Source: Ignavibacteriales bacterium
Lineage (GTDB): Bacteria > Bacteroidota > Ignavibacteria > Ignavibacteriales > Melioribacteraceae
Reading direction: 5' to 3'
Length of the DNA stretch: 64,000 bases
Assembly (NCBI GenBank): GCA_016177735.1
Contig: JACOUS010000003.1
Coordinates: forward strand, 62,001-126,000
The notes under the pieces were generated by a model. That model ran no database searches. It had not been told where the DNA came from and was given only the letters and a program-made list of their open reading frames with translations. Numbering within the stretch: the stretch's first letter is position 1; each line of letters opens with the position of its first letter. The position numbers and the translations under genes are program-made. Shown here one piece after another: positions 37,943 to 60,152 of this stretch.

Positions 37943-37977
37943 ATTCTGTGTTCTTCGCTCTATGTTCTACTCTCAGA
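37943..37977. repeat. Word-like intergenic repeat (TTCT/CTCT words)
   Basis: ATTCTGTGTTCTTCGCTC followed by TATGTTCTACTCTC: short T- and C-rich words repeated with small changes, filling the gap after the 1812-residue gene. Confidence 0.55.
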
Positions 37978-40900
37978 AACCTGTAGTTTGTGTTGCTTGA
38001 CTAAAGGCGTTTCTTCCCGTTGTTAAAATGATATTGTCAACCTTTAATGGATATGTTGCATTATACGTATGTCCTTCCACAGTCCACCTGTACAATTTCT
38101 CTGTACCTAATCCAGTTTGTATTTTGCACACTCCGAACAGAGCATAAGCTTGTGCAACTCCTTTGTTGTGTGAAACAAAACCATCCGCAATGAATGACGG
38201 GTTGCTGCCTGCTTTCATCTTCAGCGTTGCTACCTTCAATTTGCCGGTTTGCTTTTTCACTTCAATGTTTCTCCAAAACAGATTTACTTCATGACATTTT
38301 AGAACACTAATGTCCAATGATTCGAACATCTCCATATCCCGGACCTTCATCCATCCGCCTCCGGAAAGGTTAACAAACAACGGATGCTCACCTGTGACTC
38401 TTGTAATGCCATTAAGCAAAAAATATTCTTCCGCTTCGGCAGTAATTATCTCATCAATTTCCGAAATCTCAATACATCTTTTTTCTTCATTAAAGGAATA
38501 AACTTGATTATTTTTTTTTAGTTCATACAAAAATTTCTCGCCGGCTGGCGTTGAAATAATTGTATGGTAATAATCGAAACAAGATGTTGAGCCGTCACCA
38601 ACAGTAACAACGTTCGAATAGGTTGCTGTCTCGTAATTACCAATTGTACTGTTGTTATCAGGATATTGATTTGTGCGCTCCAACTTCAAACGCACATTGC
38701 CGGTAGTAGTTGCAGTGCCGCTTATCCATGCTCTATAAATTAATTGAACGGTTGTTTCGTTCGGTAAAAAGAAAACCGAACCTTGTTTTATAGTTGAATA
38801 CGAAGTAGCGGTGATTGTATTAACAGCGTGGTCACTAAAAAATACACGACCGATATTTTTCATGTCAGCATAAACTTGATCGCTGTTAAAGAGTGTATTT
38901 CCGGCGGCATCAGTCGCAACTATCTTCCCATCGGCTTGCACATAGAATCTCGAATTGTTCCCAATGCTGTCGGTTGCGCCAGCAAAAAAACATTTCGTCG
39001 TTAACGCTGAAGGTTTTTGCATGCCCGTATATTTTGAACTGTTCATACCATATAAAGTAGTAGTATCAAAATTCCAACCGGCAATCATCGCGGTCAAAGT
39101 ACCACTGGACATATTTTTTGTCACCTGGAATAATGGTTCGGTTGCACTGTTGAAAGGATCGTGAGCAAACGCAATCCCGAATTCACTTTTGAAACCAGCT
39201 TTAAAATAAACATGACCCATCGATACGAACATCGGGAACTGGTTATCTGCGATTGCAATTGTCGGATAATTACCGCCACTCCCAGAGATAGAAATGCTCC
39301 GTGCGGCGAGCGATAAATATTTTGTATTCGGTGATGTACCGATTGTCTTTGTCATCGAGTATTGGTTGATTAACCACTCACTGATCGATGCCGCGCCGGC
39401 AGCATCCCATGAGATATTATTGTTAGCAAGGAATCCCGAACCGTCAGTGTTTAACTGAATCTTCGCTGTTGTGCCAACTCTCAATTGGATCGCTGTTGAA
39501 GTGATGTTCACATTTGCATCGCTCACACCGGTCTTGCCAATTGTTGTTGTTGCACCGTATGTTGCAAGTACTGTTGAAGCTGTTCTAATTGATAAAGAAG
39601 TTGAATCAATTAATGTGTTATATCCACTTGCATTACCGATCGTAACTGAATCAGAAATCGGATCGATAATTATCCTATCGAAAGTGTTATTCCTGAATCG
39701 AAGTGCAGTTCCGTCAAAGTACATGTTTGCTTTGGACGCTGATAAAAATCCGACACGCAGTATTCCACTTGAAGATGTAAAATCAAAACTTGTTGTTGCC
39801 GCACCGCCGATATTCGTTCCAAGTTTCATATCGCCCGATGTTGTGATATTCACTGTTGTTGTACTGCCGTCATAAATATCAAATGGAATATTATGGAGTT
39901 GGAAAGTTTGATTAGATGCGCGCAAGTATTTGTCATTTATTCCAATACCCGAACCGAGAATAATTCCGTATTCATTTGCAACGCCGGTGATGCCTCGCAG
40001 ATTTCCGGTTCGTGAATGTATCGTGTAATTACCCGGCGTTGAGTTCCATGTTGCAATTTGTGTGTAAGGACTGTTCTGCCCCCAGCTCCCATCGATAGCA
40101 TTTGATTCAACAAAACCATTTCCTGATATACCATAATCAAGTGCAAGCGTCCCGGCTTTAATCGTTCCGCTTCCTGTCCCGGGCACCGATGAATGTCTCG
40201 TAAATGTGTACGCTTGTGTTTTTGTCGAAGTATCAAAACCACTCGCGCCGTAACTCGTATCGAGATTAACTGTACCCCATGCATCACTTATTGTTAAACT
40301 TCCGCTTGTGCGTGAAAATTGTCGTAAGCGAATTAAGTCACCGTTCTGAAATACTGCGGCAGTTTCAAATCCGGCAAACGACTCAACTATCAGTCTCGAA
40401 GAACTACCGGCAGTTGGCAGCGAATAATCGCTCGCAACTTTTGCAACACTCTTACAAATTATTTGGCTGCCAGCGAGTGCTTGTTCTAGGTCCGCAATGA
40501 AAGCTTTCGCGTGCATCTCATCCACGTACAAGTATCTGAAATCTGCTTCGCCGGAATTGTTGATCTTCCACTTCGATAATTGAGATATATAATTCGGATG
40601 CTGAAGATCTGACGAGATGTTACTTGTGCCGGTCCCTTGAATCGTTGCAACACCCGACAAGGTTAAATTTGCAAATTGCGGGTTCGCGCTTGTGTGTATA
40701 TCTTGTATTGTATTCAGTGCGTTTATGGTTACCCTCAGATTCGTTGCACTGTAATTCAATCCTAATGTTAAATTCGCTGTAAGATTTCCGCCGCCGGAAA
40801 GTGGGACTGTTGTGTTAATAGTTCTATCAGCTCTCACTGCATCGGTTGGCAGCGTTGCTTGATTTGATAGAGTGAGTTGTGCAAATGTTGGCGCCGAAGT

Positions 40901-43411
40901 ACTTGCAATATCTTGTATTGTGTTCAGCGCGTTTGCGGTTACCTTCAGATTCGTCGCGTTGTAATTGATGTATTGCCCGTTGATAGCCGTTGCGTTCCAT
41001 GTACCTTGAGTCAGCGTTGCAACTTTTGTAAGCGAAGAATTTATAACAGTCACTCCAAGCGTAGTCGAGGAGAGAAGTTCAACGTTGTTAATCTTAAACA
41101 GTCCGCCGGCTTGCAAACTAATGTGTTGATTAAACGACCAGTTTGTACCGTCATAGATAATTGTAGCGAGATCTGAACCGCCCGAACCGGAAACCGATAT
41201 TCCGGAGTTAATTGCTGTTGTGTTGTCACCGCCGACATTTAGATTAATAATTTTATCAACCACATTTAACTCTGTAACATTAACTTGATTGATATTCCCG
41301 CCAATATAAATATCGCCATCAACAGTTAAGTTACCCGTTATTTTTTGGTTACCGTAAACCTTCTGCATGAAACTTGCATCAATCGCTCCTCCAATTGCAG
41401 AATAACCGTCTATCTTTTGATTTCCGGTCAACCACGAATCACCGTAAATTTTTTGTTTATACAATGCGTCAACTTCACCGCCGATTGCCTGAACACCGTC
41501 TATCTTTTGATTTCCTAAAATCCATTCATTTCCGTAGTTCTTTACTTTATAGATTAGATCCGGTGCCCCGCCAAAACCGATCCGCGCAAACTCGGTTGTG
41601 GTACTTGTTTTTTTAATATCTTGAATCGTCTCGAGTTTATTATCAAGAGAGAGCTTGAAGTTATCCGAGTAGTTTAGTTGGACAACAGAGCCGGCTAATT
41701 CAATCGGTTGTTGTGCAGTTATCGAAATTGTTACACCGCCTCCGGAAGAGGAACTTGTGCTGTAGGCTGATATTGAGTTATATTTTTCTAAACTCAAAAC
41801 AGCGCGCGCTTGTTGATAATCATAATCGTATCCGGTAACACTCACTAATTCAAAATTTGCAGCCGCATTCGTTTCGTTTATTTCACTGCTTAATATAAAA
41901 TACCGCTCACCGTTCAAATCTATTAAATCGAGTAGTTCCCACTCGTACATGTCATCTTGAAGTCGTGTTGAAAGATTAAAATAGAAATGTCGCTTGCCGT
42001 AAAAGTCCATTACTTCAGTTGCAACTGTGAGCGCATAAGAATCAAGAGCAGTTTGTGTAAACTCAACAGTGCTCGGTGCTACAATCTCTATTTTTATTTC
42101 GTTACGTGGCTGAATGCCCGGGTATTTTTTTACAGTTGCTTTACCTTCGAGAGTAATCCCATTAACAAGCTTCCCACTCTTTACGGTTACAGTTACTGCG
42201 TCTGCAAGTTTATCCCAAAAATATTTTTTCTTGCCACCGCTCTTCTTCGCAACTGGAGTAAATGATCGAACAGTACCGGAAGAGATTGTACTCTTTTTTT
42301 GTAAAACTAATTCGCCGTTCTTATTGAAGAAAACATAACACTGCATCGAACCGGCTAACATTCTCAAAGCATCGAGCGGATGCATTCCGAAAGGATTTTC
42401 GTCAAGTAATACTGAAAAATAGTCGAGAGAAATTGGGAAGGTAGTCCCACCGGTTTTATTAACAATTGTAATATTCCCCCAAACCTTTTCTACTATGGCT
42501 TCTATTATTTTAAGAGCATCGTATGCGACAATTTCCCAACCGGCGACATATTGAGTGATTCTGCCGGGGAACTGATATTTAGTAATTGGAAAATCTGTTC
42601 GATACTGCTTTATGTAAATATCCTGTGCATTGAACAGATCGCTCCACCAGGTTGAATTTGTTTTATTGATTGAATCAACTGTTCCACTTTTGTCCTGGTC
42701 TGTTGTTGCTGCGTACCAGTTCTGATAATTAGTTCTTATTCCATAAAAAACTTTTCCATCCTGAAATGTTGGGTCGAAATATTTGAACGTGATTAATCCT
42801 TGTGCATATTCACTTTCTTGCTGACCTCTTAAAAAGTGTATCTGAATTGTTTCGCCAAGTTTGGGAGTATTCGTGTTAATAGTTTGTCTTACTAATCCAC
42901 CGCTATTTGTGTAATACAAACTAAAATCATTTGCATCCCAAAACTTTTCATAAGTAATCTGATTGCATTGCGAATCTGTGTTTACATCATAAAGGACATT
43001 TCCGCTCGTTCTAACTGCTGTCTGTGTGATAAGACTAAGTGAAGATAATTTATCCAGCACATTGAAACTGATTTTCTTTTCTAAGTCGGGCCACTCAATT
43101 GTTGAAAAATCACAAAGACCCTCAAATAATTTTGATGTACTTCGATCAGACTTTATCCCGTGCAATTCAAAGATGTACCGTTGGACTGCAGAAAGGTTGC
43201 CGCCAAATGCATTGTAAACCGGATTGCTGCCACCTTCATAATCAAGTGTTAAACCAAGTTTATCGAACACTATAATACCGGCTTCACCCGGGTTCTTCGA
43301 TTCGATCCGTCTCTTCACACTGCCGACATTGAACAGCGCCGTTTGTGGTGTCCAAGTTTCAAGCGTTCCGTTAATTCCGTTTCTAAATTTCAGCTTCGGC
43401 ATTCTAATCAT
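37973..43411 (-). CDS. Giant tail-tip/central fibre protein with C-terminal Hint (intein-like) domain
   Basis: 1812 residues. Residues ~1-560 look like a tail-hub domain (KLKFRNGINGTLETWTPQ, LDKLSSLSLITQTAV). Residues ~640-720 carry repeated units (GNQKIDGVQAIGGEVDALYK; GNQKIDGYSAIGGAIDASF; GNQKITGNLTVDGDIYIGG), and ~800-920 repeat LNTIQDI and LSGGGNLTANLTLGLNYSA, typical of beta-helical fibre shafts. From ~900 to 1600 is a long beta-rich region. Residues 1611-1749 form a Hint domain starting at Cys (CFDYYHTIISTPAGEKFLYE), with the block-B-like TGEHPLFV and ending in FVSHN, then 63 more residues. The ATG overlaps the tape-measure stop. It probably forms the tail tip and receptor-binding fibre. 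Confidence 0.82.
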   Translation of the reverse strand: MIRMPKLKFRNGINGTLETWTPQTALFNVGSVKRRIESKNPGEAGIIVFDKLGLTLDYEGGSNPVYNAFGGNLSAVQRYIFELHGIKSDRSTSKLFEGLCDFSTIEWPDLEKKISFNVLDKLSSLSLITQTAVRTSGNVLYDVNTDSQCNQITYEKFWDANDFSLYYTNSGGLVRQTINTNTPKLGETIQIHFLRGQQESEYAQGLITFKYFDPTFQDGKVFYGIRTNYQNWYAATTDQDKSGTVDSINKTNSTWWSDLFNAQDIYIKQYRTDFPITKYQFPGRITQYVAGWEIVAYDALKIIEAIVEKVWGNITIVNKTGGTTFPISLDYFSVLLDENPFGMHPLDALRMLAGSMQCYVFFNKNGELVLQKKSTISSGTVRSFTPVAKKSGGKKKYFWDKLADAVTVTVKSGKLVNGITLEGKATVKKYPGIQPRNEIKIEIVAPSTVEFTQTALDSYALTVATEVMDFYGKRHFYFNLSTRLQDDMYEWELLDLIDLNGERYFILSSEINETNAAANFELVSVTGYDYDYQQARAVLSLEKYNSISAYSTSSSSGGGVTISITAQQPIELAGSVVQLNYSDNFKLSLDNKLETIQDIKKTSTTTEFARIGFGGAPDLIYKVKNYGNEWILGNQKIDGVQAIGGEVDALYKQKIYGDSWLTGNQKIDGYSAIGGAIDASFMQKVYGNQKITGNLTVDGDIYIGGNINQVNVTELNVVDKIINLNVGGDNTTAINSGISVSGSGGSDLATIIYDGTNWSFNQHISLQAGGLFKINNVELLSSTTLGVTVINSSLTKVATLTQGTWNATAINGQYINYNATNLKVTANALNTIQDIASTSAPTFAQLTLSNQATLPTDAVRADRTINTTVPLSGGGNLTANLTLGLNYSATNLRVTINALNTIQDIHTSANPQFANLTLSGVATIQGTGTSNISSDLQHPNYISQLSKWKINNSGEADFRYLYVDEMHAKAFIADLEQALAGSQIICKSVAKVASDYSLPTAGSSSRLIVESFAGFETAAVFQNGDLIRLRQFSRTSGSLTISDAWGTVNLDTSYGASGFDTSTKTQAYTFTRHSSVPGTGSGTIKAGTLALDYGISGNGFVESNAIDGSWGQNSPYTQIATWNSTPGNYTIHSRTGNLRGITGVANEYGIILGSGIGINDKYLRASNQTFQLHNIPFDIYDGSTTTVNITTSGDMKLGTNIGGAATTSFDFTSSSGILRVGFLSASKANMYFDGTALRFRNNTFDRIIIDPISDSVTIGNASGYNTLIDSTSLSIRTASTVLATYGATTTIGKTGVSDANVNITSTAIQLRVGTTAKIQLNTDGSGFLANNNISWDAAGAASISEWLINQYSMTKTIGTSPNTKYLSLAARSISISGSGGNYPTIAIADNQFPMFVSMGHVYFKAGFKSEFGIAFAHDPFNSATEPLFQVTKNMSSGTLTAMIAGWNFDTTTLYGMNSSKYTGMQKPSALTTKCFFAGATDSIGNNSRFYVQADGKIVATDAAGNTLFNSDQVYADMKNIGRVFFSDHAVNTITATSYSTIKQGSVFFLPNETTVQLIYRAWISGTATTTGNVRLKLERTNQYPDNNSTIGNYETATYSNVVTVGDGSTSCFDYYHTIISTPAGEKFLYELKKNNQVYSFNEEKRCIEISEIDEIITAEAEEYFLLNGITRVTGEHPLFVNLSGGGWMKVRDMEMFESLDISVLKCHEVNLFWRNIEVKKQTGKLKVATLKMKAGSNPSFIADGFVSHNKGVAQAYALFGVCKIQTGLGTEKLYRWTVEGHTYNATYPLKVDNIILTTGRNAFSQATQTTGF
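38165..38581 (-). other. Hint/BIL (bacterial intein-like) domain within the tail protein
   Basis: Encodes residues 1611-1749. It has a nucleophile-type Cys followed by TxxxTPxGxKxLxEL (block A: CFDYYHTIISTPAGEKFLYE), a TxxH motif (block B: VTGEHPLFVNLSGGG) and a C-terminal strand plus His-Asn (block G: SFIADGFVSHN). There is no room for a homing endonuclease. The residue after Asn is Lys, not Ser, Thr or Cys as in a splicing intein, so cleavage at one or both ends (BIL type A behaviour) is more likely than clean splicing. Confidence 0.75.
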
Positions 43412-46053
43412 CTACCTGTTCTTTGTTCGTAATCATAGTATTGACCAACTTTCAAAGCTTCATCATTATCGAAATAAGCTCGTGTTGGTCGTGATGCGAG
43501 ATATTCAATCCTATCACTAAGAATCCTTACTTGCTCTATCAATCTTCCGTTATCATTTCCGGTTCCACCATTGAAATAATTTCTAACTTCAAATGCAGTT
43601 CGTGTAACAAGCTCAGCCATACCGCTTGCATAATCTTCCGCCGGTGCAATAATCTCCATTCCTTTTTCACCAACAATAGCGCCGCCTCGTGCGTAGCCTT
43701 TCATTGTTGTATCTTGTTTCATAATATTTGCTGCGTTCGCTATGCCCGTACCAATTACAGCAGCTGTCATAAATGGAGCGAGTACCGGACCAACACCAAC
43801 CGGTGGTGGTGCATATAAAGCCATTACGCCTTTGTAGGTTTCTATCATCACTTGAGTAGTGGCTAATAGCTTATAGGCTGCTGTGTGCTTACTAAAAAGA
43901 CCTGCAAGTTGGCCAAGCATTTGTGATGTCTGTGAAAGTGTGTTCAGCTGTGACTGCCTGTCAATCGCTTCACGTTGATGAGTATAATAATTATGAATAT
44001 TTGTTTTTTGTTCTTCGGTGGCGCCGTACATTTCTGCACGTTTCACCGACAATTCTTCTTCTACTTTTAATTCTTCTTTTTGTTGTTCGTAAGGGTTAGC
44101 TTCAGCTTTTGCCTTAAATTGATCGAAGAATTTCTTTCCTTCTTCGGTGTTCTTAATACCTTCAATTTGTGCCGCGCCAATTTTTAATTCCAGCGCTGCG
44201 CGTTTCTCCGGATCGGTTTCTAACTCTAATAATTTTTTGTAATGGTCAATTCTAAACTGGAGAATTTCCGCGTTTGTTTTTTTCTCAAGCTGCATCTTCT
44301 GTTCGGCTAACTGAAAATCCAAATCCAGCATTTTATCATCATGGTCTTTCTTCAGCTTTTCGGTCTGAACGTCCGCTTCACCCTGGGCAATCTGTTTTTC
44401 CAATTCTATGTTTTTAATTTTCTGTTCATCAGCCGGTGTTTTTGCTTTCTTGGTCTGTAATGTTTTTTCTTCGGCATCAAGAGCTTCTAACTTCGCGTTT
44501 TTCAATTGCTCAATTATTACTAATTCTTTTTGGTAATCCGAAAGTTCTTTATCTTTCTGAATACCTACTTCAATAATTTTTCCTTTCAGCTCTTCATACT
44601 TTGCTTTTTCACTTGCAAGTGAATTAATGCCGCGTTCTTTATTCTCATTATTCTCGTCGCCGTTTATAAATTTTATCCTATCATCAATTTTCTTTAGTTC
44701 ATCCTGGTATTGTTTTAATAAGTCCAAGCTATACGGAGCAACTAATCCATCATCAATATTTTTCAACTTCTTTATTTTTTCATTTAATTCAGTACGCCGG
44801 TTTTCTAATTTTTCCAGATCGCCCATATTATTTTTTATCGCAATTAAGGTATCAAGCTGTTCCTTTAGCTTTTTCCCACTTTCGGATGTAAATATTTGTT
44901 CGGGTCCAATACCAAATTGAGGAATTCCTTTAGAAATTACGTAAGGTTCTGTAGACAATTTTCCCCGTATTTCCATCTCTTTGGAGTCAAGTTGTTGCTT
45001 GCTTAATTTCTGATATGATTCTCTTAGCTTATCAATTTCTTCTTTTTGCATTTTTACTTCAGCTGTTGAATCACCTGTGAATTTTGCTAATATTTGCATC
45101 GCAAAAACAACAGCATTTATACCCAGCAATATACCGCCCGGTCCTTTTATACTTTGCATAAAAGCTTGACCTAAAGTCATATTAAGCCCGGATGCTTCCT
45201 GCTTTGCATATTGCATGTACTGCACAACCATAGGAATATTATTACCAATACTTCTCAAACCCATTTGGTAATTAACGAGGAACATGTCAGCGTCTGAAAC
45301 CAAATAACCAAATTGACCCATCGCATTATTCATCGAGTTCATACCTGGTATTACTTTTTGTTGCGCGCCGCCGAGTTCATTATGCTGTGTTATTAATTGT
45401 CCGTATGCAGATTTTAGATTTGTTGATGCAGCAACTTTTTGTTTCCACGCTTCGCTGTTTATAGCAAGTGTTTTAACTTCTGAATCTAAAGATTGTATAA
45501 CATCATTTATTGCATCTGCAGAAAGCCCTTGGGTGAGAATATATTGCTTTAATTGTTCTGTATTCTCTTGTGTCATCAAACCATATTTCTGCGCTTCAAC
45601 ATTTAGATTTTGAAAAGCGGGAGTCTGATCGGTTGCTCTTATAACCGCTTGCACCTTTTCAAGTTCGGTTTCAATTTCTTTTATCTGTGCAAGTCTTCTG
45701 GTGTATTCTTCACCGCCGATCGGTACACTTTGGAATTGTGTTTTTAAGTCTCTAAGACGTTCAACTAAATCTTTGATAGTAACATTAACGCCGTCAAAAT
45801 TCTTTCCTAAATTTTGTCCTAGACCGGCAAAGGCGCCAATCTGCGATATTGATTGATTGGCAGTTTTTGCTTCATTACTTATGTCATTAAATTTTTTAGC
45901 AATGTCTTGTATCGATGCTTTTATTTTTTCATTAGTTGCCTCAGCAGCTGCGCCGGTCTCAACGAATTCGCCTTTCGTAAGATCGAGCGTAGCAATAGCT
46001 TCCTTGCCATCGATCATCAACTCAAATATCAATTCATTATTTGCATTTGCCAT
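43408..46053 (-). CDS. Tail tape measure protein
   Basis: 881 residues with long coiled-coil stretches (EKQIAQGEADVQTEKLKKDH, DFQLAEQKMQLEKKTNAEIL) and a hydrophobic patch (GGILLGINAVVFAMQILAKF) around residues 300-325. Near the C terminus are TAAVIGTGIANAANIMKQDT and GYARGGAIVGEKGMEIIAP, common in tape measures. It sits directly after the two overlapping chaperone frames, the invariant order in siphophages. By the usual 0.15 nm per residue, the tail would be about 130 nm long. Confidence 0.9.
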   Translation of the reverse strand: MANANNELIFELMIDGKEAIATLDLTKGEFVETGAAAEATNEKIKASIQDIAKKFNDISNEAKTANQSISQIGAFAGLGQNLGKNFDGVNVTIKDLVERLRDLKTQFQSVPIGGEEYTRRLAQIKEIETELEKVQAVIRATDQTPAFQNLNVEAQKYGLMTQENTEQLKQYILTQGLSADAINDVIQSLDSEVKTLAINSEAWKQKVAASTNLKSAYGQLITQHNELGGAQQKVIPGMNSMNNAMGQFGYLVSDADMFLVNYQMGLRSIGNNIPMVVQYMQYAKQEASGLNMTLGQAFMQSIKGPGGILLGINAVVFAMQILAKFTGDSTAEVKMQKEEIDKLRESYQKLSKQQLDSKEMEIRGKLSTEPYVISKGIPQFGIGPEQIFTSESGKKLKEQLDTLIAIKNNMGDLEKLENRRTELNEKIKKLKNIDDGLVAPYSLDLLKQYQDELKKIDDRIKFINGDENNENKERGINSLASEKAKYEELKGKIIEVGIQKDKELSDYQKELVIIEQLKNAKLEALDAEEKTLQTKKAKTPADEQKIKNIELEKQIAQGEADVQTEKLKKDHDDKMLDLDFQLAEQKMQLEKKTNAEILQFRIDHYKKLLELETDPEKRAALELKIGAAQIEGIKNTEEGKKFFDQFKAKAEANPYEQQKEELKVEEELSVKRAEMYGATEEQKTNIHNYYTHQREAIDRQSQLNTLSQTSQMLGQLAGLFSKHTAAYKLLATTQVMIETYKGVMALYAPPPVGVGPVLAPFMTAAVIGTGIANAANIMKQDTTMKGYARGGAIVGEKGMEIIAPAEDYASGMAELVTRTAFEVRNYFNGGTGNDNGRLIEQVRILSDRIEYLASRPTRAYFDNDEALKVGQYYDYEQRTGR

Positions 46054-49904: not shown

Positions 49905-49965
49905 CTCTGCTATTTGCTTTTCACTCTTCACTCTACATTCATCACTCTGCACTCTTTGCACTATC
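49905..49965. repeat. Word-like intergenic repeat (CACTCTTCACTCTACATTC words)
   Basis: TTTTCACTCTTCACTCTACA then TTCATCACTCTGCACTCTTT: repeats of CACTCT with small changes before the GTG of the 49896 gene. Confidence 0.65.
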
Positions 49966-50395
49966 CTTTGAACAAATAAATTCCGTTGTGACTGATGTTC
50001 CGGAAATCTATATGCACCCAGCTAACATCCAATTCCATCGCACAGATTTCGTTAAACGGGAATTCGTTCTGATGAGCGATAATATACTTTCTCACTTCGT
50101 CTGCACTCATTTCCCTAACATTGAAATCAACTGCTCTTCCGAAGCGGTGCTGTGAATAGTCTGCGCCGGTTTTGTCCGCCGGTCTTCTTAATCCGCGAGA
50201 ATCATAAGGTCCGCCAACATGCCAATTATTAATCGTGATCGGCTTATTGAAGTGCTCTCGAATTCCGTCGATTGTTTTTAGTAAGCGTACATCGAAGAAC
50301 ATCAACGCGCTTTCGCCGAACGTTGCGAAGGTCTCTTTATCAACAAGTTCTCTTGTCAAAAAATGTTTTGGTTTATAGAATTCTCTCATCGTCAT
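49961..50395 (-). CDS. M15-family peptidase endolysin
   Basis: 144 residues. Contains SQHRFGRAVDFNVREMSADE (Zn ligands His and Asp) and VSWVHIDFRNIS (third ligand His), the peptidase M15A pattern of phage endolysins that cut peptidoglycan stem peptides. PITINNWHVGGPYDSRGLR precedes the catalytic part. The ATG at 50395 or the ATG at 50389, which is better spaced from AGGA, may be used. It overlaps the upstream gene and lies next to the holin-like gene. Confidence 0.88.
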   Translation of the reverse strand: MTMREFYKPKHFLTRELVDKETFATFGESALMFFDVRLLKTIDGIREHFNKPITINNWHVGGPYDSRGLRRPADKTGADYSQHRFGRAVDFNVREMSADEVRKYIIAHQNEFPFNEICAMELDVSWVHIDFRNISHNGIYLFKG

Positions 50396-50564
50396 TTCCT
50401 TTATCTATTTCTTTCAGCAGATTAATCCTCAATTCGATCTGCGTTTTCAAATCGCTCAGTTCTTTAATCGATTCTTCATTGCTTAACCGATCCGATTCAA
50501 ATATTTTGTCAACCGTTACTAACGCATCTTTGTAAAGCCTATCCTTGACACTTCCTTTCGTCAT
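50373..50564 (-). CDS. Small coiled-coil phage protein
   Basis: 63 residues, one long amphipathic helix (EESIKELSDLKTQIELRINL). Overlaps the endolysin gene by 23 bases and starts two bases after the previous stop, so it belongs to the same tightly packed run. Function unknown. Confidence 0.6.
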   Translation of the reverse strand: MTKGSVKDRLYKDALVTVDKIFESDRLSNEESIKELSDLKTQIELRINLLKEIDKGNDDERIL

Positions 50565-50566
50565 GA

Positions 50567-50734
50567 TTAATTATCCAGCTGTTCGTCATCGATTGTAACG
50601 AACCTTTCTTTCGTCTTTTGATTTAACGCTTCGGCAATCTTTTCAGCGATTCCTTTTCTTGCTTCTTCTTTTTTCAAATCGGCATCGCAAAATTGAATTA
50701 ACACTTTTTCTATTTTTTTAGTATCAACTTTCAT
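50567..50734 (-). CDS. Small hypothetical phage protein
   Basis: Start taken at ATG 50734, one base after the stop codon of the gp36-like gene (TGA-T-ATG); 55 residues, helical and charged (KKIEKVLIQFCDADLKKEEA). An upstream in-frame start would overlap the gp36 gene. No family recognised. Confidence 0.55.
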   Translation of the reverse strand: MKVDTKKIEKVLIQFCDADLKKEEARKGIAEKIAEALNQKTKERFVTIDDEQLDN

Positions 50735-50735
50735 A

Positions 50736-51206
50736 TCAGAACATCTTCCAGAAATTGTCACTAAAGTATCTGTCGCTTGCCGTTTTGTTTACTCTGATTT
50801 CTCCGGAAATCCCTTGCGTATCCGGTGCCGCCGGTTCAAGATCGAGAGTTGTTTCGCCGCGCTGTATTTGTTGTAATTGTTTTGTTGAATCGTTGAAAAT
50901 TTTCTGCTCGCTTTCCGGCATACTGTCGCGCATTCTTCGTTTTTTAATATTGTAAATAACCATGTCATCGCTAATCGATTGAATCGTTGTCGAAGTCTGG
51001 CTTAAAGGAAGTTTATATCTCCCTCGTAGTGAGTCGTTAATTCCTTCTGCAACTTCATTTGCTATTTGACTAAACCTCTCAACAACCGGATCAGCCGGGT
51101 CAGTTAAATCGATTAGATCCTGCTGTCTCGATTCATCATCTAATAGTTGAATGAGAATACGCTGATCAATTTTTTTACTTATGCCGTCAACTGTTGAATA
51201 AGCCAT
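50736..51206 (-). CDS. Mu gp36-like protein (DUF1320)
   Basis: 156 residues. VERFSQIANEVAEGINDSLR and GRYKLPLSQTSTTIQSISDD, then VIYNIKKRRM, match DUF1320, the gp36 protein of Mu-like phages that acts at the head-tail interface. Its ATG overlaps the preceding stop codon (TAATG). The C-terminal ~40 residues are extended and polar. Confidence 0.82.
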   Translation of the reverse strand: MAYSTVDGISKKIDQRILIQLLDDESRQQDLIDLTDPADPVVERFSQIANEVAEGINDSLRGRYKLPLSQTSTTIQSISDDMVIYNIKKRRMRDSMPESEQKIFNDSTKQLQQIQRGETTLDLEPAAPDTQGISGEIRVNKTASDRYFSDNFWKMF

Positions 51207-51397
51207 TAGTCCTTACTCGTGATCTTGTTCTTGTTTATACTCTTATTTTTTTTATAGACTTTGAATATTACTTTGAACGCAAAGGCAACCCGGTGAAAAA
51301 TATTTTCCGCACAAACCGTTTCGAGAACGTTACCAAGATTAATTTTATAATTCTTTGTTGCATATTTCCGGAGTTTCTTTACTAAACCGTTGTTCAT
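51206..51397 (-). CDS. Small basic phage protein
   Basis: 63 residues, very Lys-rich at the C terminus (YKKNKSINKNKITSKD). It has a clear AGAGGA ribosome-binding site and its stop overlaps the ATG of gp36, so it is most likely real and translationally coupled. Possibly a minor virion or DNA-binding protein. A GGAGGT/ACCTCC hairpin lies 20-48 bases before its start. Confidence 0.6.
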   Translation of the reverse strand: MNNGLVKKLRKYATKNYKINLGNVLETVCAENIFHRVAFAFKVIFKVYKKNKSINKNKITSKD

Positions 51398-51691
51398 ATA
51401 TTCCTCTTATAAAACTCGGGAGGTAAACCCGTGTCTTAAACCTCCACACAACTTTTCGGATGTACACAGTTTTTATGTTGCTGTCAGCAGATTTTAACCG
51501 CCTCTTCTTGCAAAACATCAGCACTCGAAGAAGTAACCTTTACTGATTGCATACCCTCAGTTAAAACGAATCCGCTATCTCATTGGGTTTAATATTAGTG
51601 TAGCACAAAGTATTGCACTCACTACATTTTTTTTTTAGAACAGAAAGGTGAGATGAAGAACTTCTCACCTTTTACTTTTTACATTTTATTT
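51398..51691. other. Gap between capsid gene and gp36 group
   Basis: 294 bases. It holds the capsid terminator at the capsid-proximal end, a GGAGGT/ACCTCC inverted repeat (51417-51445) and a 22-codon frame (51484-51552, minus) with a poorly spaced GAGG. No gene of normal size is present. Confidence 0.4.
51644..51673 (-). terminator. Hairpin terminator after the capsid gene
   Basis: Minus-strand transcript: AAAGGTGAG, loop, CTCACCTTT followed by CTGTTCT. A nine-pair stem with a modest T-rich tail 20-45 bases past the capsid stop codon; could attenuate instead of fully stopping the late transcript. Confidence 0.7.
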
Positions 51692-52732
51692 CTACGCGAC
51701 CGTGGCGTAAATGTTTGCATCCGGTTGATGACAAACTGGAAGCGGATCCGATTCAACAATCAGATTCAATCCCGCTGGATCATCTTCTGCTTTGTCCTTT
51801 GAGAAATACTTAGCCATTGTTAAAGGGATTTCTTCGATTGCTGCAAAGTGAATTCTATTATCCGCAGAAGTAGAAGCAAGTATTACAACACCATCTGGAA
51901 TAAATTGTTGTTCATTGCCATCAACGTCAGTATATGTAGCATCATACATGTAATGGACCATCCCGTCTAATTCGGCGGTTTTAATAGCTCCCATTTCTAA
52001 AACCAATTGATCAGTCTTAACATCACCAAGATTGATGTTTTTCTTGTCAAGATATTTTAGAACTTCCTCTGCTTTCAAGAACAATTCAAATGTTGTTGAA
52101 TTATAGAGAACGATGGTTGGCACCTTGCCGCTTGCTTTGTATGCCTTGTTTCTCCATGCACGCAAATTGGCGAGTGGCGTACATGTAGTCGGCGCGTCCC
52201 ACTTATTAGTGCCCGTAAGAGTTGGTTTATTCGCAGATGGCATGCCCATATCAATTGAGAATTGTAAATCTGGTTGAGTTATAGTATAACCACCGGTTAG
52301 TGCTTTCATACACATGAATTCGATTGTCCGGTCTATAATATCTTTCAAGTCTTTTTGTTCAATCGCAACTTTTTTCTTTCTTGCTTCTTCAACTGGATTT
52401 TTCCCGGCACTGCCTGGAACGAAAATTGAATCACCCGCAGCTCTCAATCCAAGATCACTCGGTGTCAAAAACTTTTTTAATCTTATTGATGGGGGTTGGA
52501 TTGTTTGCGATTTCAATCCGGTGTTACTCATCATCTTAGCCGGGTTACCACGCTTTACAAACGGCGCAATTTTCTTGCCGCCAACAATTATATCTACAAG
52601 AACCGAAGTTGTCGGATACTCTGGTTCTCTGCCTTTGAAGATTGTACTTCGGATAAAGCTCGGTACTGAGATCATAGAATTGACAGCTTCAGTAAGAGAC
52701 ACATATCCGAAGGTTGGGATTGTGTTTGACAT
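51692..52732 (-). CDS. Major capsid protein (phage capsid protein E family)
   Basis: 346 residues. IPTFGYVSLTEAVNSMISVP at the N terminus, STIFKGREPEYPTTSVLVDI, GGKKIAPFVKRGNPAKM, and VPTIVLYNSTTFELFLKAEE with DGVVILASTSADNRIHFAA near the C terminus. This is the lambda-E-like HK97-fold capsid family (PF03864). It follows the small decoration protein gene, the same order as lambda D-E. Confidence 0.92.
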   Translation of the reverse strand: MSNTIPTFGYVSLTEAVNSMISVPSFIRSTIFKGREPEYPTTSVLVDIIVGGKKIAPFVKRGNPAKMMSNTGLKSQTIQPPSIRLKKFLTPSDLGLRAAGDSIFVPGSAGKNPVEEARKKKVAIEQKDLKDIIDRTIEFMCMKALTGGYTITQPDLQFSIDMGMPSANKPTLTGTNKWDAPTTCTPLANLRAWRNKAYKASGKVPTIVLYNSTTFELFLKAEEVLKYLDKKNINLGDVKTDQLVLEMGAIKTAELDGMVHYMYDATYTDVDGNEQQFIPDGVVILASTSADNRIHFAAIEEIPLTMAKYFSKDKAEDDPAGLNLIVESDPLPVCHQPDANIYATVA

Positions 52733-52771
52733 TTTGTCCTCGCGATTAATTATTATACTTTATATACTTCG

Positions 52772-53125
52772 TTAAAAAACACTGCCAACGAATATCGGTG
52801 TTCCTTCGAAATCGACTTTTGCCGCAGCATCGAGACCGGTTAATGCCGCTTCATTGAAATGACCGCTTGCATATGCAACCGCTTCAACATCGGCGTTTGT
52901 AGCGTCAACATCTCCGGCAAGAATTAATTTTGCTGTTTCGCTTCCGTCGACGGCTCCGTTATTGTATGTAGTATATTTACCTGAAGCAGTTATCTTACCA
53001 AGCACGGTGCCTTTGCCCAGCACACCGGCTCCCGAAACAATTGTGACCGGCTGGAATACTCTCGGAAACTCGCCTGCTAACAGTTGCACGCTGTTGCTGG
53101 TTTGTGTGTTTACTAATTCTTCCAT
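52772..53125 (-). CDS. Head decoration protein (lambda D-like)
   Basis: 117 residues. FPRVFQPVTIVSGAGVLGKG and GTVLGKITASGKYTTYNNGA followed by SGHFNEAALTG match the HDPD decoration family, whose trimers stabilise expanded capsids. It lies directly before the capsid gene. Confidence 0.87.
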   Translation of the reverse strand: MEELVNTQTSNSVQLLAGEFPRVFQPVTIVSGAGVLGKGTVLGKITASGKYTTYNNGAVDGSETAKLILAGDVDATNADVEAVAYASGHFNEAALTGLDAAAKVDFEGTPIFVGSVF

Positions 53126-53157
53126 CTTGATACCTCGTTAAATAATTATTAAAAATT

Positions 53158-53200
53158 CTTTTTGCTCTTTGTGCTTCGTAACTCGTATTTTGTACTTGTC
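53158..53200. repeat. Word-like intergenic repeat (CTTCGTA / CTCGTA words)
   Basis: GCTCTTTGTGCTTCGTAACT then CGTATTTTGTACTTGTCACT fill the gap between the protease/scaffold and decoration genes. Confidence 0.5.
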
Positions 53201-53684
53201 ACTGCTTCTTCGGGTTAACAAAAGCCGCTATCTCCGCACCAACCTTTTGATACTCGGTAAGACTGTGGTCTCCGGCGTTTCGCGTTGTTGCAAACTCGCT
53301 CATTTCTATTTTATCTGGGAGTTGCTTAAGAGTTCCTTTCAGGAAATCAAAAGCATTGAATTGAATTTTTATTGTGGGGTTCTCTGCCGCCGAGAATTCG
53401 AGTGTTCCTTTTTCTTGTGCGGCAAGAAGAAGGTTGACAACTTTCTCTTTTTCTGCGGGTAGTATTTTTAATTTCATTTCCGGCGATTCGCAGAATGCAA
53501 GAACTTCATTTTTGTTTTTCTCAAGCTGCGCCGAAGAAATTGTTTGAGTTGCGGTCTGCAGTTCTGCTTTCGTTGAGCTTAAATCTGTTACTAACTGTTG
53601 ATTCTCATTTTGTAAAGCTTCAAGTGCCGCTTTCAATTGAGGTTCAATTTGACTAAGATCAAACTTGCTTAAATCGATTTTCAT
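53199..53684 (-). CDS. Nested scaffold protein from internal start (Mu gpZ-like)
   Basis: In the same frame as the protease, GGAG followed by nine bases leads to an ATG at 53684 that would give a 161-residue scaffold (MKIDLSKFDLSQIEPQLKAA). Mu and lambda make their scaffold in the same way from within the protease gene. The internal ribosome-binding site is what supports a separate product. Confidence 0.55.
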   Translation of the reverse strand: MKIDLSKFDLSQIEPQLKAALEALQNENQQLVTDLSSTKAELQTATQTISSAQLEKNKNEVLAFCESPEMKLKILPAEKEKVVNLLLAAQEKGTLEFSAAENPTIKIQFNAFDFLKGTLKQLPDKIEMSEFATTRNAGDHSLTEYQKVGAEIAAFVNPKKQ

Positions 53685-54380
53685 TTTTTTTTCTCCGTTT
53701 GTATTTATTGAAAATTGACTCACTTCTGGCTTTCCCGTTTCCGCCTTCTCGAATATTGTTGGTGCGTTCCCCGTCTCGTCAATATCCCATTCAGGGAATA
53801 ACTCGTCTGCTTCTTCTTTACCAAACTTTTCGATCCATTTGTTTTTTAGATTTCTAAAAATGTTTTTGATGTTGCGGAACGGCCATTGTGATACTTCGTA
53901 CTTTTCAAACTCGTATTTGTCATCTTCAATTGCAGCAAAGTGGTTTTCGATCTCTGGCAGCGATAATTGCAGATTTATATTTTTTGCACTGGGCTCTATA
54001 CTAAAACTGTAACTCCCGAGCCCATCAACAGCCGGCGCAATCTCTTTCGGTAAAAAGCCAATGTGGCTTAACGCAAGAGTATTTTCATCTATTGAAACAC
54101 TTCTCCCCGGAAGTTCACCGGCATTGACAGTATTCTTGAACTTCTCTTCTACTTTTTTTGGCAACGCAAATAAATATTTACCTATTCGTTTAAGCTCGCT
54201 TATCGTACCGAAACCAAGTTTATCATAATGCGGATGCTCAACTACGAATTGCGGCTCTTTCGATAGGTCAGTGTTTGCAATAATTTTATCGAGATCCCTT
54301 TCTTCAAACGTTACAAGCTTTCCGTTTTTCGCAGTGAATTTTCCTGTCTTCAGTATCGGCATCCATTTATAATTCTTCAC
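53199..54380 (-). CDS. Prohead protease fused to scaffold (Mu gpI-like)
   Basis: 393 residues. The N-terminal ~160 residues (TGKFTAKNGKLVTFEERDLD, VEHPHYDKLGFGTISELKRI, GRSVSIDENTLALSHIGFLP) have the Mu-I-type protease pattern, in which the catalytic residues sit around VEHP, GRSVS and LSHIGFL. The C-terminal ~160 residues are a helical scaffold (LSQIEPQLKAALEALQNENQ and LQTATQTISSAQLEK). An internal start with its own ribosome-binding site lies at 53684. First gene of the leftward late unit. Confidence 0.85.
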   Translation of the reverse strand: MKNYKWMPILKTGKFTAKNGKLVTFEERDLDKIIANTDLSKEPQFVVEHPHYDKLGFGTISELKRIGKYLFALPKKVEEKFKNTVNAGELPGRSVSIDENTLALSHIGFLPKEIAPAVDGLGSYSFSIEPSAKNINLQLSLPEIENHFAAIEDDKYEFEKYEVSQWPFRNIKNIFRNLKNKWIEKFGKEEADELFPEWDIDETGNAPTIFEKAETGKPEVSQFSINTNGEKKMKIDLSKFDLSQIEPQLKAALEALQNENQQLVTDLSSTKAELQTATQTISSAQLEKNKNEVLAFCESPEMKLKILPAEKEKVVNLLLAAQEKGTLEFSAAENPTIKIQFNAFDFLKGTLKQLPDKIEMSEFATTRNAGDHSLTEYQKVGAEIAAFVNPKKQ

Positions 54381-55183: not shown

Positions 55184-55582
55184 ATGCGCGACCCGGCGGT
55201 AAGAGAAAAAGCTAAAGAACTTTTTGTTGAGAATGGTTTCAGTATGGATACGATCCTAACTCTTCTTGATGGCGAGGTATCCAGAAAGACACTTTATAAT
55301 TGGAGGGAACAAGATGGCTGGGGTGAGCTGAGAATTTCACGCGCACAAAGACAGCAGAACCGAAGGCAAAGATTGGAAGCACTGCTCGATAAATTAATGG
55401 ACGAAGCAGAGACCGCCACAAATCCTCGGTTGATTTTTTCAATTGGCAAAATTATAGCGGCTTTGAAATCTATATCGACATTTGAATTCACAGAAGAGAA
55501 ACAAGAAAAGGAGACAACTATTAAAAAAGGATTTACAAAAGATAATCTTGAACTTCTGGAAAAGGAACTTGGCGTTTTGTAG
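55184..55582 (+). CDS. Terminase small subunit-like protein (Mu gp27-type)
   Basis: 132 residues with an N-terminal helix-turn-helix (KAKELFVENGFSMDTILTLL, DGEVSRKTLYNWREQDGW), then a helical dimerisation segment, then a polar end. Position ahead of the large subunit and the HTH match small terminases, which recognise the packaging site. A GAGGG ribosome-binding site precedes the ATG. Confidence 0.68.
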   Translation: MRDPAVREKAKELFVENGFSMDTILTLLDGEVSRKTLYNWREQDGWGELRISRAQRQQNRRQRLEALLDKLMDEAETATNPRLIFSIGKIIAALKSISTFEFTEEKQEKETTIKKGFTKDNLELLEKELGVL

Positions 55583-55600
55583 CTGTCCACTCTTTCTGAT

Positions 55601-55621
55601 TAGGAGGGTAGGGGTAAGGTC
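55601..55621. repeat. Repeat family GAGGGTGAGGTC, degenerate copy
   Basis: TAGGAGGGTAGGGGTAAGGT and following C, just after the small terminase stop; related to copies at 46555, 61628 and 62256. Confidence 0.5.
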
Positions 55622-55809
55622 AAAACGCTCATAAATCGCTTGTACGGCGCGGCATCCTCCAGAAAAAGTACTTTCCACGCCGAAGGTTATTAATCGCTAT
55701 TAAACACGTTTCTGCTAAAATTAAACGCACCATGAACAACAGTTTAGGAATATCCGCTTTGGAACACACGGGAAACAGAAAATATTCTTATTCACAATTC
55801 GGAGTTAAA

Positions 55810-56559
55810 ATGGATTCACTTATTTCCTGGGTGGGCGGCAAAAAACAATTAAGAGAAAAAATAGCAAGCCACATACCTCCTAACATAAACACTTACGTAG
55901 AAGCCTTCGGCGGCGCCGGCTGGTTACTATTCTATAAAAATCGCTGGGCAGAAGTGGAAGTTTACAATGATAAAGACCGGCGGCTTGTTAATCTTTTTAG
56001 AATTGCAAAGTATCATCCGGAGGCTCTCAAAAAAGAAATGGAGTTTAATCTTCATTCGAGAGAAATGTTCAAGGATTTTAGATTACAGGAAGGTCTCACC
56101 GATGTTCAGAGAGCCGCACGCTTTTTCTATTTAATAAAAAGATCGTTCGGCGCAAAGGGAATGCATTTCGGTACATCTGCAAAATCCAACTCTGCCAAAT
56201 CGAATGAAAATATCCTTGCATCGATAATGAATGTTGCTAAGCGGCTCGATAGAGTGACAATCGAAAATCTCGACTATAAAGATATTTTCAAAATCTACGA
56301 TACGGAAGAAACTTTTTTCTTCCTCGATCCTCCATACCGCTACGGACAACAGTACGAAGTCGGCAGAATGAACTACGAAGAATTTCTCTGTAATCTCACA
56401 AAACTCAAAGGGAAATTTTTGCTCACTATTGATGACTGCAAAGAAAATGTCGAGATGTTCAAGCAGTTCAATATAAAAAAAGTATCGCGCGCTAACGGAA
56501 TAAACAGGAAACGGATTGTAAACAACCGCTTCAAAGAATTATTTGTGATGAATTATTAA
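55810..56559 (+). CDS. DNA adenine methylase (Dam/D12 class)
   Basis: Start at ATG 55810 directly after GGAG; an upstream ATG at 55732 would add a tail that is not conserved. 249 residues: ISWVGGKKQLREKIASHIPP (motif X), VEAFGGAGWLLFYK (SAM-binding motif I), FFFLDPPYRYGQQY (catalytic DPPY). Type D12 methylases methylate adenine at N6, mostly in GATC-like sites. Inside a late operon it probably protects the phage genome at packaging time. Confidence 0.88.
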   Translation: MDSLISWVGGKKQLREKIASHIPPNINTYVEAFGGAGWLLFYKNRWAEVEVYNDKDRRLVNLFRIAKYHPEALKKEMEFNLHSREMFKDFRLQEGLTDVQRAARFFYLIKRSFGAKGMHFGTSAKSNSAKSNENILASIMNVAKRLDRVTIENLDYKDIFKIYDTEETFFFLDPPYRYGQQYEVGRMNYEEFLCNLTKLKGKFLLTIDDCKENVEMFKQFNIKKVSRANGINRKRIVNNRFKELFVMNY

Positions 56560-56560
56560 T

Positions 56561-56587
56561 TGTAGAGACGCATCGCTGATGCGTCTC
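56561..56587. repeat. GTAGAGACG-family hairpin overlapping an alternative terminase start
   Basis: GTAGAGACGCATC, loop GCT, then GATGCGTCTC: ten perfect pairs (56565-56574 with 56578-56587). It belongs to the same family as 20293-20320 and contains an in-frame ATG for the following gene. Confidence 0.75.
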
Positions 56588-56602
56588 CGTTTAAAACAAA
56601 AC

Positions 56603-57964
56603 ATGGCTAAAATAACTTTTCTACCATATCAAAAAAAATGGATTACCAACTCTGCTCAATTTGCTTTGTGCGAAAAGAGCAGACGGGTTGGTATTACCTA
56701 TGCAGAAGCTTATCGTGTTACTCGTGATCTATCTACCAAAAATGTTAAAAACAATAAAGTTTGGTTTTCATCTGCGGATCTATCTGCCTCCGAAGAGTTT
56801 ATTGATTATGTAGGTTTCTTCGCAAAGTATCTTAAGACTGCAGCTAAATATATTGGCGAAGTCATAATTGATAAAGACGATGATATTACTGCACACCGGG
56901 TACGCTTCAGCAATGGAGGCGAATGTAATGCCATATCGTCAAACCCGACTCGTTTCCGTTCAAAAGGAGGGGATGTTATTCTCGATGAATTTGCACACCA
57001 CCGCGACCAAGAAAAAATGTTTACAGCATCCAAGCCATCAGCAATGTGGGGTAACCGCGTTAGAATAATTTCTACTCACAATGGAGATGATTCCTTTTTC
57101 AATAGCCTTGTGGCAGAAACGAAAAAAGGCGCAGAAGGAACAATGAAAAATTGGACTCCATTCAGAATTACAATTGAAGATGCTATTAAAGACGGGTTAG
57201 TAAATACTATACTTGGTCATAAAGCAACCAAAGAAGATATAAAACATTTTATGGAAGATGCATTTGCCGGGATGACTCAAGAAGCCATTGATGAAGAGTT
57301 CTACTGTCTGCCGCGTTCAAGTTCTAACTCACATTTATTACCATACGAATTAATTAACCCGATTGAACGCGATAACATTCTTGACGAGTTGCTCGCCGGC
57401 ATTGTTGGTGATATTTATGTTGGTGGTGATATAGGAAGAAAAAAAAATCCGTCTGTATTCTGGATTCTTGAAAGACTTGGTGAGTTGCTTTACACAAGGA
57501 AAATTATTGCTCTAAAAAATGTTCCTTACAGTGAGCAAAGAAAAATTCTGTACGATGTTCTATCTCATAAAAATTTCAGACGTGCTTGTATAGATGCAAC
57601 CGGTATTGGTAACCAACTTGCAGAAGAAGCGCAAGATGCATTTGGGAAACTGCGAGTAGAACCGGTGATGTTCACTCCAAAAGTAAAAGAGGAATTAGCA
57701 TCCCACACTTACGTGATGGTTGAAGGGAAAAAAGTTCTGATCCCTCGTGATAAAACTATTCGAGAAGATTTGTATTCTGTCCGAGCCGTTACAACATCTG
57801 CCGGTAATGTTCGTTATGAAGCAGATCAATCAAAAGACGGCGGGCATGCAGATTACTTCTTCGGGCTTGCACTCGCACTCATGGCGGCTAAATCTTATTC
57901 AGGTCCGCTGATAATTACATCCGGCGCACGCAGACAAATGAATTCAATTTTACAAGGGTATTAA
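56603..57964 (+). CDS. Terminase large subunit (Mu gp28-like)
   Basis: Start taken at ATG 56603 (MAKITFLPYQKKWITN), because the earlier ATG at 56579 lies inside a hairpin repeat. 453 residues. ATPase part: LCEKSRRVGITYAEA (deviant Walker A) and GDVILDEFAHHRDQ (Walker B plus catalytic Glu), DDSFFNS coupling region. RNase H-like nuclease part: DIYVGGDIGRKKNPSVFWIL, RRACIDATGIGNQLAEEAQD and the Asp near KDGGHADYFFGLALAL. It cuts and pumps DNA into the prohead. Confidence 0.92.
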   Translation: MAKITFLPYQKKWITNSAQFALCEKSRRVGITYAEAYRVTRDLSTKNVKNNKVWFSSADLSASEEFIDYVGFFAKYLKTAAKYIGEVIIDKDDDITAHRVRFSNGGECNAISSNPTRFRSKGGDVILDEFAHHRDQEKMFTASKPSAMWGNRVRIISTHNGDDSFFNSLVAETKKGAEGTMKNWTPFRITIEDAIKDGLVNTILGHKATKEDIKHFMEDAFAGMTQEAIDEEFYCLPRSSSNSHLLPYELINPIERDNILDELLAGIVGDIYVGGDIGRKKNPSVFWILERLGELLYTRKIIALKNVPYSEQRKILYDVLSHKNFRRACIDATGIGNQLAEEAQDAFGKLRVEPVMFTPKVKEELASHTYVMVEGKKVLIPRDKTIREDLYSVRAVTTSAGNVRYEADQSKDGGHADYFFGLALALMAAKSYSGPLIITSGARRQMNSILQGY

Positions 57965-57969
57965 AATGT

Positions 57970-58012
57970 TTTCAGTCGTACTTCGTAAATCGTACTTCGT
58001 ACTTTCGCAGAG
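57970..58012. repeat. Word-like intergenic repeat (CGTACTTCG words)
   Basis: AGTCGTACTTCGTAAATCGT then ACTTCGTACTTTCGCAGAGG: CGTACTTCG repeated with small changes between the terminase and portal genes. Confidence 0.65.
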
Positions 58013-58018
58013 GCTTTT

Positions 58019-59650
58019 ATGGGTGTAAAAGGTTTATATGTAAATCCAACAACATTTGTTCCGCTTAATCAAATCAGCGAGAACTTATCAAGTGAAATTG
58101 CGACACGCCAATTTGCACTTGGCGGTTATACCGGCTTCTTCAATTATCTGCCGGACCCTGACCCGATCTTGCGCAAACTTGGTCAAGATCAATCTATCTA
58201 TAAAGATTTGCGAAGCGATGAACAAGTCGGCGCATTGATGGCGCGCAGAAAAAACTTAACAAAAAGTTTGGATTGGGATATTGAACAAGGAGACGCCGGC
58301 GAAAAAGAATTTCAGTTATGCAAACGTTCACTGCAAATTCTTGCCGATAGAAAAAACAAAGTGAAGGATATTATCTCCCAATCTCTCAATCCGATTTTTT
58401 TCGGTTACTCAGTTTTTGAAGTTGTATGGGATCAAATCGATGGCGCTTGGCTCCCGGTGAAGATACAAGAAAAACCGCGCGAATGGTTTCTATTCGATAC
58501 CGAAAACACGCTCCGCTTCCGCACTCAATTCGACTGGAATGGTGTACCGGTTGTTGGCGAAACAGCAGATCAAAAATATTCTTATAAATTTATTTTGCTT
58601 CAGAACGAACCTGAGTACGATAATCCTTACGGTGACAAAGCATTGGCAAGATGTTTCTGGCCGGTTACATTCAAACGCGGCGGCATAAGATTCTTTTCTG
58701 TCTTTATAGAAAAGTATGGAATGCCTTTCATATTTGGGAAACTTCCGCGCGGTGCTAAACCGGAAGACCATTATGACCTTGCAAACAAGCTGTCAAATAT
58801 GATTCAAGATGCAATTGCGACCGGACCTGATGATTCATCAATAACTATCCTTGAAACAAAGTCATCTAATTCAGGTGACCTTCATGAAAAATATTTGCAA
58901 CGTTGCGACAATGCAATTGCCAAAGCGATCCTTACAAATGCGCTCTCGGTAGAGCGTCAAGGAACCGGTTCGTATGCCTCGGCTGAAACCGGCGCAGATA
59001 CTATCGAAGGTAATCTTTCCGAAGAGGATAGAGATTTTCCAACCGAACTTTTTAATCAGCTATTTAAATGGATCGTTGACGTCAATATCGGCAGCGGCTT
59101 ATATCCAACATTCAAACCGTTCGAACTCGAGAGCGTCAATCAAGAAAAATCCGAGCGCGATAAAAACCTGAAAGATGTCGGCATTCGCTTCACAAAAAAG
59201 TATTTTGTTGGCAATTACAATCTCGAAGAAGATGACTTCGATCTCTCAACGAACAGTGAGCCCGGACGAACACCGCTAATCAATCCGGCAGCCAATGTCC
59301 AGCATCCAGTGGTGAGCACTGCAGAACCATCACCAACTAAATTATCCGCCTTTAGAAAATTTGTTAACAACATCATAAACCGATTTGATTTTTCAGATAA
59401 CAATGAAAAACAAACTTTTGCAGAACAAATTACTTCAGCTATTCCCGAGAAGCTTCTTCAATTCGCGGCAGAAGAAACTTTACGCCCGGTTGTTGAGCTT
59501 GCAACAAAATCCAATAGCTATGATGACTTTAGAAATAAGCTCGCGGCTCAATTTCCAAACATGCCGACAGATCAATTCAAAAGTATGCTGACAAAAGTAT
59601 TATTTATCGCTGAGTTAGAAGGAAGATTTGATGCTCAATCTAAAAAGTAA
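58019..59650 (+). CDS. Portal protein (DUF935, Mu gp29-like)
   Basis: 543 residues. LPDPDPILRKLGQDQSIYKD, DEQVGALMARRKNLTKSLDW, FSVFIEKYGMPFIFGKLPRG and TGSYASAETGADTIEGNLSE are characteristic of the DUF935 family, the dodecameric portal of Mu-like phages. The C-terminal ~120 residues (from ~430) are extended and likely flexible. It follows the terminase and precedes the MuF gene, as in Mu. Confidence 0.93.
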   Translation: MGVKGLYVNPTTFVPLNQISENLSSEIATRQFALGGYTGFFNYLPDPDPILRKLGQDQSIYKDLRSDEQVGALMARRKNLTKSLDWDIEQGDAGEKEFQLCKRSLQILADRKNKVKDIISQSLNPIFFGYSVFEVVWDQIDGAWLPVKIQEKPREWFLFDTENTLRFRTQFDWNGVPVVGETADQKYSYKFILLQNEPEYDNPYGDKALARCFWPVTFKRGGIRFFSVFIEKYGMPFIFGKLPRGAKPEDHYDLANKLSNMIQDAIATGPDDSSITILETKSSNSGDLHEKYLQRCDNAIAKAILTNALSVERQGTGSYASAETGADTIEGNLSEEDRDFPTELFNQLFKWIVDVNIGSGLYPTFKPFELESVNQEKSERDKNLKDVGIRFTKKYFVGNYNLEEDDFDLSTNSEPGRTPLINPAANVQHPVVSTAEPSPTKLSAFRKFVNNIINRFDFSDNNEKQTFAEQITSAIPEKLLQFAAEETLRPVVELATKSNSYDDFRNKLAAQFPNMPTDQFKSMLTKVLFIAELEGRFDAQSKK

Positions 59651-59690: not shown

Positions 59691-59737
59691 CTTTAAACCA
59701 CATGGCAAAAGATATAATCACTATACTGGTACTCTTA

Positions 59738-60148: not shown

Positions 60149-60152
60149 AATC

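Follow-up and report, generated by a model that had tools for sequence, protein, structure and literature searches.

A Hint domain of the A-type BIL-like kind near the C-terminus of a prophage tail-tip/fibre-like protein

The 64,000-nucleotide stretch of Ignavibacteriales DNA analysed here (the window) encodes a long phage tail protein with an intein-like domain close to its C-terminus, and the question is what kind of domain this is and what it would do to the protein that carries it. The original prediction had placed a nucleophilic Cys, a block B TxxH motif and a terminal His-Asn at 38165–38581, with Lys after the Asn and 63 residues remaining. We confirmed these residues and positions, and found that they lie on the minus strand (the prediction gave none), with Lys1750 the first of the 63 residues past the Asn. 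The parts are laid out as follows:

37973–43411, minus strand: ORF of the tail-tip/fibre-like protein, 1812 aa, adjoining the tape-measure gene
38582–38824, minus strand: segment directly before the Hint domain, residues 1530–1610, 5 strands predicted at low confidence
38165–38581, minus strand: Hint domain, residues 1611–1749, 139 aa inclusive, recognised by sequence, fold and profile score
38579–38581, minus strand: Cys1611, domain residue 1
38384–38395, minus strand: block B, T1673-G-E-H1676, with T and H both present in 37/37 aligned relatives
38165–38170, minus strand: terminal His1748-Asn1749, the Asn1749 codon being 38165–38167
38162–38164, minus strand: Lys1750, the +1 residue, directly after Asn1749
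37976–38164, minus strand: 63-residue C-terminal part past the Hint domain, 3 strands predicted at low confidence

The frame of the domain is open throughout the host ORF, and the tail-protein Hint domain was the sole match when its own genome was searched.

The gene belongs to what looks like a complete Mu/B3-like siphophage prophage. Its main blocks are:

43408–46053, minus strand: tape-measure protein gene (phrog_1506, E 5.6e-12)
49961–54380, minus strand: endolysin, head-tail adaptor, major head protein, decoration and head maturation protease genes
55184–62248, plus strand: terminase subunits, Mu-type portal, Mu F-like and virion morphogenesis genes

Just past the window lie genes for Gam, an AAA protein and a Mu-type transposase, and TerL is closest to those of Leptolyngbya phage Lsp-JY19 (39.4%) and Pseudomonas phage B3 (37.3%). 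A defective prophage had been suspected from a minus-strand block without terminase or portal and from PF04860, which found nothing in the genome; this reading was dropped once genes for a Mu-type portal, a terminase and transposition had turned up. Both terminase genes flank a gene for a D12-class adenine methyltransferase (55732–56559, plus strand), and the Mu F-like protein (60192–61448, plus strand) ends in a PBECR2 nuclease-like domain.

Gene order around the window protein fits a siphophage tail-tip/central fibre protein. The earlier placement of the Hint domain inside a phage tail gene is supported. Against PHROGs, the protein matched families of unknown function only; phrog_1980 ('tail fiber protein') was found in 2/6 N-terminal pieces, the window's piece not among them, and the N-terminal part gave no match in the PDB. 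The more specific 'receptor-binding tail protein' is a tentative name, drawn from gene order and weak profile matches.

We then considered whether the domain is a Hint domain. The pattern C..TxxHP..HN with the observed spacing occurs once in the tail protein and in 0/2000 shuffles of the same protein. With the window row left out, a profile of 37 relatives, which were reached via searches seeded with the window sequence and are thus not fully independent, scored the window domain at 62.8 bits vs 9.5 for the best of 1000 shuffles. The window sequence alone gave weaker signals: the best relevant Pfam family was PF14890 (E 0.032, 14.5 bits; cut-off 35.8), the 283-aa C-terminal piece (residues 1530–1812) matched no Pfam family at E 0.01, TIGR01443 matched weakly (E 0.12), and an archaeal PolII intein was the top Hint chain, also weakly (E 0.035). 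The window row stayed under the curated cut-off of PT-HINT (PF07591), with no match at E 0.01; 35/38 aligned rows matched this family.

The homologue search proposed with the original prediction returned relatives from three sources. Among 295 related genomes they occurred in one class member (G291, E 2.2e-9), and the two G291 relatives scanned in full were over the PT-HINT and Intein_splicing cut-offs; further relatives then came from IMG/VR, and others from phage records. PT-HINT itself matched in 3 of 294 genomes of the class, 2 of them over the cut-off, too few for a survey of the +1 residue. No close sequence relative was returned from IMG/VR by the 208-aa C-terminal piece, nor from phage records by the 151-aa Hint piece at E 1, and no second tail protein with this Hint domain at this site was found in either collection.

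Structural modelling, on which the original prediction had staked the fold, was in its favour. The AlphaFold model (residues 1530–1812) has ten-residue means of 84–94 in 10/14 domain blocks, 78, 68, 49 and 71 in the remaining four, and 28–56 in the flanks; the nearest solved folds are BILs, with BIL2 of Tetrahymena BUBL1 the best Foldseek match and the C. thermocellum BIL also among the nearest. The tail-protein domain is a real Hint domain, A-type BIL-like, with putative activity.

Several properties align the domain with A-type BILs. Besides the modelled Hint fold, its 139 residues fall inside the 130–155 given for BILs in PMC9185962, and the N-terminal Cys, TxxH and terminal His-Asn are all present. 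The +1 residue, Lys1750, agrees with the lack of an obligatory Cys, Ser or Thr in A-type BILs and departs from class 1 inteins, which have one of these there. BILs are inserted in variable parts of host proteins (PMC5874633), and the tail relatives' matches likewise end by residue 1356 in six genome regions and three viral loci: the relatives in the six regions share the front or middle of the protein. The tail ORFs of these six regions, some of which are broken or short, gave no Hint match; a partial match in L085 lies in a different ORF. In block F, residues usual in the relatives are replaced (N to T, Y to A, H to P).

Structure comparison gave Z-scores of 17.4 for the C. thermocellum BIL and 17.3 for Tetrahymena BIL2, with DnaB mini-inteins tied at 16.5–16.6. 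A profile of 10 family members, hand-picked among Lys-type relatives, separated BILs from inteins better than Z: the BILs were matched at E 4e-22 and 4e-21, and the next chain, an intein, at E 3e-12.

We hold it moderately probable that this A-type BIL-like Hint domain, set in the variable C-terminal part of a Mu/B3-like tail-tip/fibre protein, processes its own protein in cis, with cleavage dominant. The acyl group of Ser1610 would pass to Cys1611, and attack by water or a different nucleophile on the resulting thioester would give an N-side cut; cyclisation of Asn1749 would give a C-side cut before Lys1750. Because +1 is Lys and not Cys, Ser or Thr, cleavage would be expected to prevail, with little splicing, as described for BILs. 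The BIL-type self-processing domain of the original prediction holds as to Hint fold and BIL-like kinship, and is weakened by the replaced block F, a point that the prediction lacked; the cleavage that it envisaged, with release of the last 63 residues or particle diversity as its effect, is hypothetical. Further papers drawn on are PMC3556154, PMC5259590, PMC4031507, PMC7412058, PMC7664689, PMC7824862, PMC1779556 and PMC7765530.

The condition of the active site raises a serious rival, which we nevertheless consider rather unlikely: the Hint fold is kept and the chemistry is weak or lost, so that the domain is a relic or a purely structural insert. The N of block F (34/37 relatives) is T in the window domain, the Y (33/37) is A, and the His (28/37; Pro in one) is P, while the residue before the terminal His is Ser where relatives have V (33/37) or A (4/37). 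Such residues help the C-terminal step in inteins, so this step may be slow in the window domain. The eroded block F is the main evidence against activity. In the sources used, its residues are common in BILs and not defining. The domain also misses Pfam cut-offs that its relatives pass. Against this rival, the core residues Cys1 (Cys in 36/37 aligned relatives), TxxH and His-Asn are all intact, the reading frame is uninterrupted and the fold prediction is good. His-Asn-Lys in 37/37 aligned relatives says little here, because the rows were chosen by hand and 23 came from a search pattern that demanded HNK.

Self-excision that joins Ser1610 to Lys1750 through the amino group of the Lys, and so rebuilds a single C-terminal beta domain, is unlikely. 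The model puts strands before and after the Hint domain, but these flanks have low confidence, and a +1 residue other than Cys, Ser or Thr speaks against splicing. The reviews diverge: BIL cleavage is described as dominant over splicing, one has type A BILs able to splice, and one has A-type BILs unable to ligate. Class 1 inteins lie at conserved sites for which intein-free alleles exist; an empty-site search with the joined flanks of the window domain gave no uninterrupted relative at E 0.001: the best E among phage records was 0.3, only the window's own genome fell below E 0.001 among 295 genomes, and IMG/VR gave no match. The weak matches across the junction that were inspected looked, by eye, like unrelated proteins.

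An argument for splicing comes from other loci, where a Hint domain ending in HN-K-G splits a lambda gpI-like tail-assembly protein (IMG/VR L094, 3707–4846, phrog_32 E 7e-37; L095, 5611–6726; L101, 3–971). In L095 the halves before and after the Hint domain match phrog_32 at 3–95 and 98–192, so the domain there interrupts a contiguous protein; a J-like gene lies downstream of the gpI-like gene and a JAB/NlpC gene upstream. Iyer et al. (2006) describe gpI as a ubiquitin-like domain joined through a glycine-rich linker to a C-terminal domain, and regard cleavage by JAB at this junction as probable. By analogy, the gpI-like/Hint arrangement recalls the ciliate BUBL genes, with their ubiquitin-like domains and BILs, and resembles a phage counterpart of them. 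In the model of the gpI-like protein, the Hint domain is confident; the blocks before it have means of 31–58, with 74 where the Hint domain begins, and the model thus says nothing on a ubiquitin-like fold in this poorly modelled half.

Hint domains occur in other phage proteins as well, namely a tape-measure protein (L057, phrog_4211 E 3e-85), two proteins in which the Hint portion hits a 'virion structural protein' family (L059, L100), and a 480-aa virion structural protein among the tail genes of Erwinia phage pEa_SNUABM_1 and its Dickeya AD1 counterpart. In Vibrio phages 1.082.O (L137, 3048–5174) and 1.266.O (L138, 3048–5171), a split Hint domain with two separate profile matches and an HN-C end lies in the gene between a 'coil containing protein' gene and a neighbour of the major capsid gene.

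Other arrangements were also observed. An Ignavibacteria relative (L017, 624–2983; same place in L107) has three tandem genes of 241–256 aa that share a front resembling a peptide leader, a Cys-rich stretch, a Hint domain ending in HN-K and a short Cys-containing tail; they give the impression of modified-peptide precursors that carry their own processing domain. L052 (IMG/VR, 5914–7752) carries three consecutive Hint domains, each ending in HN-K-G, then a low-complexity part and a putative membrane helix. Eight cyanobacterial loci (L106, L110, L112, L117, L120, L126, L127 and L129) have a related Hint domain near the front of short ORFs, with HN-K followed by a glycine-rich run.

How common the +1 Lys is was surveyed on Hint domains delimited in the loci by HMM scans. 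The IMG/VR loci gave 23 distinct full-length matches, 19 of them with a readable HN end, and these had Lys 16 times and Ala, Gly and Cys once each. The survey left out inteins split by inserts, whose matches fall short of the full model, duplicates of a domain already counted (L095 = L094) and the 4/23 viral rows whose HN could not be read. Nine domains in named phage records, from 7/9 records hand-picked out of 125 and 52 matching ones, had Lys in none, with Ala in 4, Thr in 2 and Leu, Ser and Cys in 1 each. A universal HN-Lys rule is thereby ruled out: Lys at +1 is frequent among the environmental domains without being universal. All 32 genome relatives have Lys because they were found with a pattern that required HNK. 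Between 1 and 518 residues come after the Asn in the Lys group; for L062, cut off by its contig end, the tail lengths are minimum values. Only 1 to 9 follow in L093, L096, L097 and L100, where splicing would add almost nothing and the N-side reaction is likelier to matter.

A broader idea, which we regard as quite improbable, is that the HN-Lys Hint lineage is a virion-protein processing device of environmental phages. An amine, supplied by the +1 Lys, by that residue's side chain or by a Lys in another protein, would take the thioester-bound N-terminal part, and release, ligation or cross-linking of tail proteins would then need no separate protease; the window protein and the gpI-like proteins with Hint domains (L094, L095, L101) would be two uses of it.

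An ordinary mini-intein, a selfish splicing element, would share the fold, with the DnaB tie in Z and the PolII intein ranked first for the window sequence alone, but is highly improbable given the lack of Cys, Ser or Thr at +1, a 139-aa length into which a homing endonuclease cannot fit, the variable insertion site, and a family profile whose E-values for BILs are nine to ten orders of magnitude better.

The window domain is a known kind of domain in an unusual host protein. Literature searches among open-licence PMC papers turned up none that describes a phage tail protein with a BIL or Hint domain; public predicted structures and some phage records already carry Hint annotations on phage proteins, so a single case is not very surprising. 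If the domain is active, tail maturation in these phages would include self-processing of the tail tip by intein-type chemistry. The wider phage pattern (gpI-like tail assembly, tape measure, tail tip), together with the frequent +1 Lys, supplies parts that could open a question, and is a more interesting lead than the single window case.

Among known systems, the C. thermocellum BIL (PDB 2lwy) has a like fold (1.9 A over 130 residues) and shares with the window domain its size, Cys1, TxxH, His-Asn, the absence of a +1 nucleophile and a variable site; unlike it, the window domain lies in a phage tail protein, has an eroded block F and is only putatively active. Tetrahymena BUBL1 BIL2 (PDB 6y75, 6tmm), the best Foldseek and profile match, differs in being eukaryotic and lying beside ubiquitin-like domains. 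The S74 chaperone domain cuts itself in tail fibres and spikes with catalytic Ser and Lys; it is not a Hint domain, and the parallel is one of function, not of membership. pEa_SNUABM_1 gp111, like the window protein, is a virion protein encoded among tail genes with its Hint domain near the C-terminus, and differs in having Thr instead of Lys after the Asn and a collagen-like N-terminal part.
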